In this document: one piece after another, positions 422 to 32,125 of the stretch
How the letters are laid out: every line of letters starts with the position of its first letter
Numbering within the stretch: position 1 is the first letter of the stretch
From: Verrucomicrobiaceae bacterium
Lineage (GTDB): Bacteria; Verrucomicrobiota; Verrucomicrobiia; Verrucomicrobiales; Verrucomicrobiaceae
Reading direction: 5' to 3'
Assembly: GCA_016795485.1 (NCBI GenBank)
Contig: JAEUHM010000003.1
Span: 62,001-126,000 of the forward strand
Length of the DNA stretch: 64,000 nt
Position numbers and translations under genes: made by a program
Notes under the pieces: generated by a model
Database searches by the model: none
Told to the model about the DNA's origin: nothing
The model's input: the letters and a program-made list of their open reading frames with translations, nothing else

Positions 422-3400
422 GTGATCTTGTTTCGAACGTTCGTCCTCATTCTGCCTACTGCACTGCTCGCCCAGGATGGGAGGGTTGAGTTTTTTGAGA
501 AGAAGATTCGGCCAGTGCTGGCCCAGGAGTGCTACGAGTGTCACTCGGCTGCTGGGAAGCAGAAGGGCGGCCTCCTTCTCGACTCCCGTCCCGGCTGGCA
601 GGCTGGGGGCGACAGTGGCGAGGCTATCCTGCCCGGTAATGCGAGTGCCAGTCTGCTCATGCAGACCATCCGTCACACCCATGAAGACCTGAAGATGCCG
701 AAGAACGGAGCACAACTGGATCCAGTTGTGCTAGGGGACTTTGAACGATGGATCAACGAAGGAGCCGTTGATCCGCGCGACCAACCGCCCTCAGCAGAGG
801 AAGTGACACGCGACACGGACTGGAAGGCGGTGCTGGAACGGCGCAAACAGTGGTGGGCATTTCAACCGCCGAAGGTGAGTCGTTCAGATGGTCTTTCGAT
901 GGATCACTTCGTGAATGAGAAGCTGGCTGAGAAGGGGCTTCAAGCAGCACCGCGCGCTGATGATGGCACGCTCATGCGGCGCTTCCATTACGTGCTAACA
1001 GGTTTGCCACCGTCAGTCGAGGAATCTGAGGCTTACCTCGAAGCCTGCAAAACCGATAGGCAACGGGCAACTCGGGATCTTGTAGACCGATTGCTCGAAT
1101 CGCCTCGATTTGGTGAGAAGTGGGCGAGGCACTGGATGGATTGGGTGCGCTATGCGGAAAGTTATGGAAGTGAGGGCGACCCACCCATTCCGTATGCTTG
1201 GAGATACCGGGATTACCTCATCCGAGCCTTCAATGCGGATGTCCCGTATCCACAGATGGTGAGAGAGGCGATTGCAGGTGATGTGCTGCCCAATCCTCGC
1301 ATCAATACGGAACTCAACATCAACGAGTCGGCTATCGGCATCGCGCAGTTGCGTATGGTGCTTCATGGCTTTTCTCCCACCGACTCGTTAGACGAGATGG
1401 TGACGTTTACCGACAATCAGATCGACACGGTGTCCAAGACCTTTCAGGCAATGACACTAAGCTGTGCGCGCTGCCACAATCATAAGTTCGATGCCCTGGG
1501 CCAAGCCGACTTCTACGCATGGTTTGGCGTCTTCAGCAGCACGCATCCTGGGGTGCTGGATGTTAATCTCCCGCAGCAAGAGGTGCGAGCCAAGCTGGTA
1601 AGCATCAAGGAGCAGATTCGTTCAGAGATAGGAAAAAGCTGGTTAAGTGCTGCAAAAACACTGCCAAAGACGCCCGCAAAAGACGCCAGCATGGGTTCTG
1701 TGACCCAGGAGACGTGGTGTCATCCAAAAGCACGCGCGGGAGACTTCTCGGTGGCATTGGAAGGAGACCGGATCATCCAAAGAGTCTATCCGGCAGGGAT
1801 GGTCAGCGACTTGATCACGGATCGGGAGCGAGTCGTGACCATCTCACCGACTCAGAAGTGTGAAGGAGGAACCCTGTGGGTGCGGTGTGCTGGCGGTGGC
1901 GGTGCTCGTGTGCGCTACATTGTGCAGAACTATCCGCGCACCGGAACCATCCACAAAGCAATCGATCTCAGTAAGCCAGAGGACAGTAAGTTCCGCTGGC
2001 GCAAGCTGGACCTCGAGTACTGGAAGGGCGATGACATCTTCATCGAGTGTGGCACAGCAGCGGATCGGCCCGCTGAAGCGCAGCTAGACGCAAGATCATG
2101 GTTTGCGATATCGGACGTCAGATTCGTGCAAGGCGACTCCGTTCCTGCCGATCCTGAGATTGGCGGTGATCCTGTGTTAGCCGTTCAAAGCTGGCTGAAT
2201 GGCGATGTGACGAGCGAACAGGCAACATTGATCCAACTTCTCTTGGAACAAGGAAAGCTGCCGAATGGCGTGGAGGGCAACCTGGGTCGTTTAGTCGAGC
2301 AGTATCGTGCTGCGGAACGGTCTCTGAGACCACCCACACGTGTGCCTGGTGTCCTTGAAGACAATGGTCGTGATGCGCTGTTGTTTACTCAAGGGGATCA
2401 CAAACGCCCCGCTCAGCCGGTAGCGCGTGGATTTCTTGAAGCCATCGATCCAAAGCCATTCGCCACTAAAGGCACTGGTCGTTTGGAGTTGGCCAACGCG
2501 ATCAACCATCCGAACAACCCACTGACGAACCGCGTGATCGTGAATCGTCTTTGGCATCACGTGTTTGGCCAAGGATTAGTAAGCACCGTGGATAACTTTG
2601 GCAGACTTGGAAAGCTTCCCACACACCCGGAGCTGCTTGATTGGCTTGCGCTAGAGTTTCAGAAGTCAGGCGGCTCAATGAAGCAGATGATTCGACGGAT
2701 GGTGCTCACGGACGCCTTTGCCCGTGCAGCAGGCCGGACCGATAAGGATCCTGACAACCTCTATCTGAGTGCATGGAAGGTGAGGCGTCTTGAGGCAGAG
2801 GCCGTTCGAGACACCATGCTTGCCTTGAGTGGTCAGCTTGAGCATGGCTCTCCGGGAGAGGCTGTGTCTGGCGACTCACCAAGACGCAGTGTTTACGTTC
2901 AAGTCATCAGGAATCGACTTGATCCACTGCTCAGCGTCTTCGATGCGCCCGTGCCTTCAGCGACTCGCGGCAGCAGGGATGCCACCAATGTGCCAGCACA
3001 GGCTCTGGCGCTGATGAACGATGTCGGAGTCAAGGACTGGGCGCGCAGTTGGGCTTCACGGGTTTTGGCTGACAAGAGTTGTTCAACCGCAGAGATGCGC
3101 GTTGCTCGCATGTTGAATGAGCTAACGGGCCGCTCTCCCTCTGCGAGTGAGAAGTCTGGAGCACTTGCTCTCGTGACGACAGCAGAAACGGAGCGACAAA
3201 CTCAAGCGGCGACTTTGGACAAGCTAAAGGCCGAGCAATCAAGGCTTTCTCAGGAAGTAACAAGGATCATGGTCCCTGCCCGCACTAAGCTACTCGCTGC
3301 GAGGTCACCAGCAGCTGTCATAGCCGATGCGCCTGAGCCGTTTGCGGAGTGGGATTTCGAGGAGAATGCGAATGATCGCTCTGGGAAACTGCCGCTTAAG

Positions 3401-30118: not shown

Positions 30119-30126
30119 CACCTCCC

Positions 30127-30460
30127 CTCCGTGCCTCCGAGTCCTCCGTGCGAACCAAAAGCAGCCGACTTATTTTCGCACGGAGAGCACGAAGACCACG
30201 AAGGCCCAGAATCATAAAACCTCCCCCCTCCGTGCCCTCCGAGCCCTCCGTGCGACCCAAAAACAGCTGACTTATTTTCGCACGGAGGGCACGAAGACCA
30301 CGAAGGCCCAGAATCATAAAACAACCCCCTCCGTGCCCTCCGAGTCCTCCGTGCGAACCAAAAGCAGCCGATTTTCGCACAGAGAGCACCGAGACCACGA
30401 AGGACCAAATGCAGAAAACAAACCATCCCCCTCCGAGGCCTCCGTGCGAACCAAATCCCC
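30127..30460. repeat. tandem ~101-bp hairpin repeat, three full units plus a decayed fourth
   Basis: The motif CTCCGTGCG recurs at 30144, 30246, 30347 and 30440, i.e. periods of 102, 101 and 93 bp. Each unit carries a left arm of about 29 bp (repeated CTCCGTGCC, CTCCGAG, CTCCGTGCGAA) and a right arm (TTCGCACGGAG...GCACGAAG.CCACGAAG) that is its imperfect inverted complement, around a loop containing CCAAAAGCAGCCGACTT. The transcript would fold into long stems. The array fills the gap between the convergent recQ and 30515-31405 genes. It resembles REP/BIME-type elements. Open frames through it are by-products of composition. No RAYT transposase gene is in the window. Confidence 0.8.
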
Positions 30461-30514: not shown

Positions 30515-31405
30515 CTAACCACCCACCACGACCTCCACGGGCAGACTCCATTGTCCCACTTGGGCATCATCCGTGCGGTAGATGCCGCGATACTTCCACT
30601 TCGTCAGTGCGGCAGGGTGTGGTGCCGTGTCCAGGTAGCCAGGTGTGCTGTCGAATGCTAGGTCGCGGAAGCCTTGGCCATCGCCACGGTCCACTTGCAG
30701 TTGCAGCATCTCCAGCCAAGCCGAGAGCCCCTGCCATCCCCAGCCCACAAACACATTCGGTCCCGTCACCTCCACCGTCAGTTCAGGTCGGCTCGTATTC
30801 AGGTCCGGTGTCACCGCCTCCGTGCCCGTCGTACCCAGGTCAGACGCAATAGCTTCCGTGTAGCCAGGTGATTGTTTGATCACTTGGACGAAGCTGAAGA
30901 TTCGATCCAGCGCGCCAGCGTTCACTGGAACCACCGCCGGCAGTCCAGCGCCAGCATCCGCAGGCGGCAGTGGGGGCGGCGTAAATACTGGCAGCACCAT
31001 CAGCGCCCCGCTGTCAGCAAATTGCGCCTCCTTCACCGCGTCCGTGCATGCCTTGGCCCACGCCTTAGCCGCTGGTTGCCAACTGCCCATGATGTACACC
31101 AGCCAGCGGGCATCCGCTATGGTTGCCGCTACCTTCAGTGCTTCTAGACCAAGCACGGCGGTGTAGCCGCCGATCTTGTTGGAGTAGTTCGTCAGCCAGA
31201 CAATCTGCTGGGGAGCCGGACTAGGATAATACGAGTTATGTTTCATCTGCTTCTGTTTGGTTTGTCGTTTCTGGTTTGCATTTGGGGGAGGGATATAGCC
31301 GGGGTCTCCGGGCTCTAGGATGCCAGACCACGTCAGATTCGGTGAATCCCAGCGGTAAGGCTGGCCCGTAGCAGGATCGATCGCGTCCCAAGTCAACGGC
31401 TTCAT
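30515..31405 (-). CDS. hypothetical protein with FN3-like C-terminus
   Basis: From ATG 31405 the product is 296 residues; a second possible start is at 31246 (MKHNSYYPSP...), and the first 53 residues (MKPLTWDAIDPATGQPYRWD...) look like a separate Trp/Asp/Pro-rich leader. The middle (QIVWLTNYSNKIGGYTAVLGL) is helical, and the C-terminal region (about 215-296) with W.Y...Y and QWSLPVEVVV resembles an FN3-type beta-sandwich. I believe this family recurs in Verrucomicrobia as MKHN..YYP proteins, but give it no function. Its 5' side abuts the 21-bp array. Confidence 0.6.
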   Translation of the reverse strand: MKPLTWDAIDPATGQPYRWDSPNLTWSGILEPGDPGYIPPPNANQKRQTKQKQMKHNSYYPSPAPQQIVWLTNYSNKIGGYTAVLGLEALKVAATIADARWLVYIMGSWQPAAKAWAKACTDAVKEAQFADSGALMVLPVFTPPPLPPADAGAGLPAVVPVNAGALDRIFSFVQVIKQSPGYTEAIASDLGTTGTEAVTPDLNTSRPELTVEVTGPNVFVGWGWQGLSAWLEMLQLQVDRGDGQGFRDLAFDSTPGYLDTAPHPAALTKWKYRGIYRTDDAQVGQWSLPVEVVVGG

Positions 31406-31464
31406 GGGGCGCACCTCCAGGCCCTGGTGGTGATGGCAAAAACATTCCAAAGTCTTCTGAAAAT

Positions 31465-31858
31465 CCCCGCGCTGCACCCCGCACCCGTCCAGAAAATACC
31501 CTCAGCACGCGGGCATCGCCCCCAAACTTCCGCCACACTCCCCCAACTCCCTGGGGCACGCCCCAAAAAGCCTGGGGCGCTCCTCCCCACTTCTCCGGGA
31601 ACGCCCCACAAGTTTTTGGCAACACCCCAAAAATGCTGGGAAACACCCCAACTTTCTCCAGGAGATCCCCGTGGTGCAGGAGGAGCGCCCCGCAAACCTT
31701 CAGAAGCTTCTGGCAAAGCGCGGGAAACACCCCACGACCTAGGGGGCACACCCCGCAGAGCAGGGGTATCGCCCCGCAACAGGTAGGTATCACCCCATGA
31801 ACCACAAAATGCACCCCTTAAACCCCTCCACACACCCCATTTCATCCAACAATACCCT
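31465..31858. repeat. 21-bp phased minisatellite of imperfect G-N-C palindromes
   Basis: On the plus strand a CRCCCC core ends each unit. Core starts (CCCC or CCC) fall at 31477, 31498, 31519, 31540, 31561, 31585, 31604, 31625, 31646, 31667, 31688, 31730, 31751, 31772, 31793, 31814, 31835 and 31855. They follow 21-bp spacing, drifting by only about 1 bp over 18 periods; one unit near 31709 has lost its core. Many units also carry G runs 3-5 bp before the C run (for example GGGAAACACCCC, GGGGCACGCCCC, GGGGTATCGCCCC), making imperfect palindromes. It is not CRISPR: spacers and repeats are not separable and the unit is too short. Confidence 0.85.
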
Positions 31859-32125
31859 CCCACAGACTCCCAGTGCTTGAGCAATGATGAGTCGTCCGCA
31901 AACGCTAAACTGGATGCCGCACGCATATCTAGCTAAATAGATCATGAAAAAATCTCGCCCAAATGACAAGAATCTTTTTACGGCATACACATTTTTTTGA
32001 CTTAATCTGACCAAAGGTTCGCTCTGATTAATCAATTCCTGTGCGATTGAGGGCGAGGAAATGCGCGAGATGTCGGCAATCAACCCTAATACCCTAGCGG
32101 GAAAATCGAGGTTGTATGTTGCCAC
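31790..32125 (-). other. AT-rich stretch with a weak 111-residue open frame
   Basis: Between the 21-bp array and the DUF350 cluster the sequence becomes AT-richer than its surroundings. A minus-strand frame runs 111 codons, but its C-terminal third lies inside the repeat array and I recognise no family. The reading MATYNLDFPARVLGLIADISRISSPSIAQ... could be the relic of a helix-turn-helix protein. I regard coding as unproven. Plus-strand promoter elements for the next operon may also lie here, but none was convincing. Confidence 0.25.

Follow-up and report, generated by a model that had tools for sequence, protein, structure and literature searches.

Phased arrays of operator-like or centromere-like sites are known from plasmid iterons, from the heptad arrays of the omega repressor (a ribbon-helix-helix protein) and from the centromere repeats of ParR and TubR. 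REP and BIME elements are dispersed intergenic palindromes, and in attenuators or translationally coupled leader ORFs a short open leader overlaps the start codon of the gene under its control. Among short-unit tandem repeats, a survey of prokaryotic satellites found that repeat lengths divisible by three predominate in Bacteria (PMC6749651); the text of that survey mentions neither "21 bp" nor "Verrucomicrobia", and the array system described below is absent from it.

We analysed a 64,000-nt stretch of a Verrucomicrobiaceae contig (hereafter, the window) carrying a 21-bp array directly upstream of an FN3-like gene, together with the counterparts of both in other genomes. Like phased operator and centromere arrays, the system combines tandem dyads or direct repeats, a fixed helical spacing and, at many Verrucomicrobial loci, an adjoining gene for a putative DNA-binding protein, but it is chromosomal, occurs many times per genome and keeps one period with a different unit in every copy, and its constant partner is the FN3-like gene, whose product does not look like a DNA-binding protein. 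As in attenuators and coupled leaders, an open leader overlaps the start codon of a gene; here, however, the leader consists of 100–200 codons of tandem repeats whose amino-acid sequence is free. The arrays share short-unit tandem repetition with satellites and VNTRs, and differ from them in being bound to one gene family, in having ancient units that remain in phase and in being non-coding by substitution tests. Dispersed intergenic palindromes are found here as they are in REP and BIME elements, whereas the strict 21-bp tandem phase, the sequence particular to each locus and the position upstream of one gene family set the arrays apart. Searches of a library of open-access papers found no description of this array-gene unit.

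A phased 21-bp array and its neighbouring gene

The array spans positions 31465–31858 of the window, without assigned strand, and comprises ~17 units of imperfect palindromes with a CRCCCC core on the plus strand (GGGGYG on the minus strand). A preliminary description of this DNA had counted seventeen or so CRCCCC cores, a figure that is slightly high for exact cores, of which there are 13, and that fits the number of units when single mismatches are tolerated. Core spacings (42, 42, 43, 21, 21, 42, 42, 21, 21, 21, 21 and 21 bp) fit a 21-bp grid apart from a single +1 shift, in agreement with the total drift of about 1 bp noted previously; the single coreless unit noted at the same time is located at 31692–31712, and 16 of 20 CCCC starts fall in a common phase within 1 bp. 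The periodicity is real: the lag-21 best-segment score is 36.7, against a maximum of 12.3 among 1,000 dinucleotide-preserving shuffles and of 11.2 across all lags from 10 to 44 (200 such shuffles), and the autocorrelation peaks at 21, 42 and 63. The GGGG-N4-CCCC-like palindromes of the preliminary description are found in many units, where a G run precedes the C run (e.g., GGGG-CACG-CCCC), and the dyad score of the array is 0.55, versus 0.42 in the column-permuted null (p ~0.03).

Tandem Repeats Finder did not report the array because its units are only ~50% alike. A CRISPR array was ruled out, since a single 21-bp unit, diverged throughout, takes the place of a distinct repeat and spacer. The sequence CCCCATTTCATCC, read directly at the outer edge of the array (31835–31847, plus strand), resembles CCCCATTTCGTCC, a boundary motif that in related arrays (L012, L016, L026, L071 and L073) lies on the gene strand. 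The arrays of L071, L073, L031, L012 and L016 flip orientation midway, in the order CCCCATTTCGTCC, GGGGTGNTCC units, CCCCATTTCCCGGA and inverted GGAACACCCC units.

The FN3-like "dark" gene (30515–31405, minus strand; 296 aa) abuts the array as previously proposed, the array lying directly upstream of its ATG start codon at 31405. A Shine-Dalgarno-like GGAGG (31414–31418, minus strand; read directly from the sequence) is located 8 nt ahead of this ATG. The encoded protein consists of a W-rich N-terminus, a basic linker, an MKxxxYYP helical domain and a C-terminal beta-sandwich, the latter predicted by AlphaFold2 for the L035 homologue (mean pLDDT 85.5). The protein had no match in Pfam (the FN3 profile included), NCBIfam, PHROG or PADLOC, and no confident match among PDB sequences. 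Two candidate affiliations of the cassette were dropped: a defence system, since PADLOC returned generic HTH models only, and a prophage, plasmid or viral origin, since the gene is unmatched in phage, viral-contig and plasmid collections. A 102-bp tandem repeat of 3.4 copies (TTTTCGCACGGAGAGCACGAAGACCACGAAGG; 30124–30455) lies between the RecQ-like and FN3-like genes of the window.

The array recurs upstream of homologous genes

The FN3-like gene has 16 matches in its own genome, where all nine paralogues with intact upstream sequence (window copy included) carry a 21-bp array before the start codon, built from units that are all different (CCAATTGGCAACGGCGCGTTT, CCCTCCGTCAATCTGGCGTTG, GTCGCTGGGCGGTACACCGAC, GGTAGCCATACCGGCGGAAAT and others); the exception in this genome is L039, which lacks an array in its 655 nt of upstream sequence. 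Scanning named genomes identified 63 homologous loci, mostly in Verrucomicrobiota, with further hosts among the Methylococcaceae, Nitrosomonadales, Gallionellales, Thiodictyon and Chthonomonas, one myxobacterium and one planctomycete; most of these host genomes are metagenome-assembled, so that individual taxon labels could be wrong. Upstream 21-bp arrays were found for homologues in Verrucomicrobiota, Proteobacteria, Armatimonadota, Myxococcota and Planctomycetes.

When any period between 8 and 34 was admitted, the best upstream period in this set was 21 in 43 of 48 loci (42 of 48 also scoring above the threshold of 0.12), compared with 2 of 55 loci with period 21 and a score >0.12 on the downstream side. 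Loci missing an upstream array are mainly those matching the C-terminal domain alone. A second set from four related genomes, which overlaps the first in part, gave period 21 upstream of 30 of 34 loci and downstream of none (0/34). Copy number of the FN3-like gene reaches 18 per genome, with at least 15 copies in one genome, and the period stays at 21 as the unit sequence varies by copy and is unrelated between paralogues of the same genome. The array is part of a recurring unit with an uncharacterised gene family and lies nearly always upstream of it. In related genomes, where the preliminary description had proposed a search for the unit, the 21-bp step recurs upstream of homologues in different letters, and the prospect it had raised of finding no related array elsewhere is contradicted by arrays in several phyla.

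Dyad symmetry and constraint within the arrays

Folding is stronger than in arrays to whose units one and the same column permutation was applied, on the two strands alike (mean z -1.83 and -1.76), and a dyad at p≤0.05 is present in 18 of 75 arrays, with ~4 expected. At distance 3, complementarity is more frequent in the innermost palindrome pairs than in the remaining column pairs (0.41 vs 0.25), which speaks against an RNA hairpin, because such a hairpin could not form those pairs. In the four orthologues L035, L062, L063 and L064, the arrays can be matched unit by unit in a gap-free alignment, and variable positions amount to 7 of 88 in the arms, 10 of 44 in the loops and 31 of 99 in the spacers, a comparison of arms and spacers that carries a mild bias from choosing the dyad cores on L035. 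Array length differences between other orthologue or paralogue pairs are mostly whole units (21, 42, 84 and 126; also 1 and 10). Support for the earlier proposal of imperfect palindromes phased along one helical face comes from the period kept across phyla, the enrichment of dyads and the constraint on their arms. The 9-mer GGCTCRTCC is common to otherwise different units in the arrays of L181, L142, L037, L218, L238 and L239.

A leader reading frame traverses many of the arrays

An ORF of 174 codons crosses the array of the window (31402–31926, minus strand) and terminates in a TGA overlapping the FN3-like start codon (ATGA). The corresponding +1 frame is open across the array in 52 of 72 loci, and the leader stop overlaps the FN3-like start codon (ATGA or TRATG) in about half of the 72, the TRATG cases being the informative ones, since an open frame leading into a start followed by A necessarily ends in ATGA. 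Stops occur in the leader frame at 5.6 per 1,000 codons, versus 11.9–22.3 in the five other frames. Between orthologues the leader frame shows 60 synonymous to 185 nonsynonymous changes, compared with 375:98 in the FN3-like gene, which is coding in relatives. Between units, synonymous fraction and residue similarity in the leader frame equal the column-permuted null, and the conserved arm positions carry no third-position signal. In Verrucomicrobia, the leader frame appears to be translated without preservation of its amino-acid sequence. The Proteobacterial arrays (L102–L105 and L108) contain stops in every sense frame.

These features could be accommodated by an RNA leader, in which the transcribed array is a chain of small hairpins unwound by ribosomes on the leader ORF, forming an attenuator or coupling device for which the peptide sequence is irrelevant. 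The overlap of leader stop and start codon, the depletion of stops in the leader frame only and the absence of amino-acid selection all fit such a device, as do the strong folding relative to column-permuted arrays and a promoter-like TTGRCTAASG element, found upstream of 11 arrays and in none of the controls, which would place the array within the transcript. Folding is, however, equal on both strands, G-U pairs are not clearly favoured over A-C pairs, the innermost palindrome pairs are enriched and the Proteobacterial arrays lack an open leader frame; in addition, Rfam covariance models gave no family for the array of the window, the sole gathering-threshold match in the window being a tRNA. 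We consider an RNA device of this kind unlikely, and sense-strand hairpins as the sole reading were rejected, given the lack of strand bias in folding and the weak G-U/A-C asymmetry.

The preliminary description had itself offered a heptapeptide-repeat protein as an alternative. The part of this proposal that stood is the open frame, which crosses the array with its stops depleted; the amino-acid sequence is free of purifying selection, which argues against a conserved heptapeptide, and a conserved product was ruled out by six-frame synonymous tests within arrays and between orthologues. The peptide could instead be a hypervariable heptapeptide-repeat polypeptide, free to drift or diversifying, made together with the FN3-like protein. 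The frame kept open and coupled to the FN3-like start would then be expected, and both the length changes by mostly whole 21-nt units and the replacement of whole arrays between near-identical cassettes (L030/L033 and L238/L239) are compatible with it. Such a polypeptide is nevertheless improbable, as the synonymous fraction and residue similarity at the level of the permuted null, the 60:185 ratio between orthologues and the missing third-position signal all count against it, along with 22-bp steps that break the heptad register and a frame that is not open in Proteobacteria.

Neighbouring genes and a candidate binding protein

A same-strand helix-turn-helix (HTH) gene ends ~50–250 nt before the array in many Verrucomicrobial loci. 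These genes include XRE and LuxR types; Pfam assigned HTH_3 in L035 and L030 and LuxR/GerE in L029 and L095, the HTH genes at the remaining loci being recognised by eye or pattern. On the downstream side, 26 loci carry a small gene, coiled or collagen-like, whose product begins with MPFDPTKPANNSP, and L077 gave a collagen match. The window copy has neither the HTH gene upstream nor the collagen-like gene downstream, and HTH genes were not seen beside the array in the Proteobacteria or Armatimonadota loci examined. An ORF resembling a REP-associated tyrosine transposase (MANQFRHQHLRRLDRIW...; identified by eye) lies downstream of the L033 cassette (~2573–3140, gene-oriented).

Array similarity follows HTH similarity when the FN3-like protein is allowed for (partial rho 0.32, p<0.002, N=38; partial rho 0.16, p 0.09 in the same comparison at N=25), and the FN3-like protein is a better predictor of the array than the HTH (partial rho 0.49). 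L238 and L239, with near-identical HTH genes and flanks, show an array similarity of just 0.13, a clear exception that speaks against a simple "one HTH, one array" code. Conversely, L068 and L071 have an array type in common with L069, L070 and L073 despite differing HTHs.

The reading that we favour, tentatively and at somewhat less than an even chance, is that the array is a phased protein-binding array within a translated leader, controlling the downstream operon. With palindromes two helical turns apart, a dimeric, sequence-specific DNA-binding protein would occupy a single helical face, and its cooperative binding along the array could switch the downstream operon, predicted to encode structural proteins. 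In most Verrucomicrobial copies the candidate binder would be the HTH protein encoded directly upstream, and a unit sequence of its own in each copy would insulate the 10–18 paralogous cassettes from each other. A leader ORF kept open would let ribosomes traverse the array, with coupling to the start codon of the FN3-like gene. Protein binding, the identity of the binder, an effect on expression and any role of the FN3-like protein are inferred here.

Operators of this type are favoured because a constant period of 21 goes with variable units and the array is tied to a gene, because dyads are enriched and their arms vary less than the spacers, and because length changes involve mostly whole units. 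The HTH genes that precede many arrays, the correlation of HTH and array similarity, the TTGRCTAASG element upstream and the units that cassette arrays share with arrays away from the gene (below) point the same way. The involvement of the HTH protein is weakened by the L238/L239 and L068/L071 cases, which break the HTH-array match, by the better prediction of the array from the FN3-like gene and by the absence of an HTH gene beside the arrays of the window, Proteobacteria and Armatimonadota; the adjacent HTH regulator is the best candidate binder, and not a proven determinant of the array. A downstream roadblock within a transcribed leader would also be an unusual position for an operator.

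More generally, array and gene family may constitute an undescribed type of cassette, in which a sequence-free, period-fixed 21-bp array with its own sequence in each copy accompanies a dark gene family as the private address or hypervariable module of a multi-copy operon. We regard this as possible, if rather doubtful; constraint would in that case act on phase, dyads and the open leader frame, and not on a particular sequence. In several phyla, a gene family without a named domain is accompanied by an array that keeps its step and leaves its sequence free, and one genome can carry as many as 18 copies, each coded differently. Should the arrays serve as private binding sites, they would provide natural evidence for how bacteria prevent cross-talk among parallel copies of a control circuit, as well as a ready-made collection of DNA-binding proteins matched to multi-site operators; as translated leaders, they would represent an unusual case of a long frame held open while its peptide drifts. 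Either reading offers a testable way into an uncharacterised operon of putative structural proteins.

Solo arrays and arrays of 22 bp

A 1.26 Mb sample of the same genome contains eight 21-bp, four 42-bp and six 22-bp arrays, several of which do not adjoin the FN3-like gene. Solo 21/42-bp arrays without this gene are located at L142:4156-4780, L142:7737-8145, L175:12667-13061, L162:869-1143 and L183:6124-6548; the gene is nearly always accompanied by an array, the array not always by the gene. Four of the five solo arrays share a unit with a cassette array of the genome above the permuted null (L142a and L142b with L181, L162 with L030, and L183/L007 with the window), and L175 shares no unit with the cassette arrays of its own genome. 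Palindromic arrays of 22 bp (or 44 bp) are found at L147:178-478, L149:12452-12719, L156:10941-11165, L125:1-279, L137:16397-16680 and L134:4159-4392; neither these nor the coding-like L174 array has a unit matched among the cassette arrays.

A neutral or selfish satellite, generated by tandem duplication at a permissive site and found near the gene through hitch-hiking, would be in keeping with the solo and 22-bp arrays and with arrays nearly homogeneous, as if recently amplified (L118 and L036), but is improbable considering that several phyla show a single period on the upstream side of one gene family and hardly ever on the downstream side, that old arrays hold phase at ~50% identity, and that orthologous arrays retain unit order and arm sequence. 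For the protein-binding array that we favour, the 22-bp arrays of the same genome weaken the argument from phasing, since a 22-bp step would lose helical phase.

A second gene family may form part of such cassettes: at L181:14076-15582, a 21-bp array with a CGGCTAGCCG palindrome precedes a different gene having the same W-rich N-terminus (MPAPLRWDTNGLTWDSGSTWDE...), after which comes an MPFDP... family gene. The 22-bp array of L125 is likewise followed by an MPFDP... gene.
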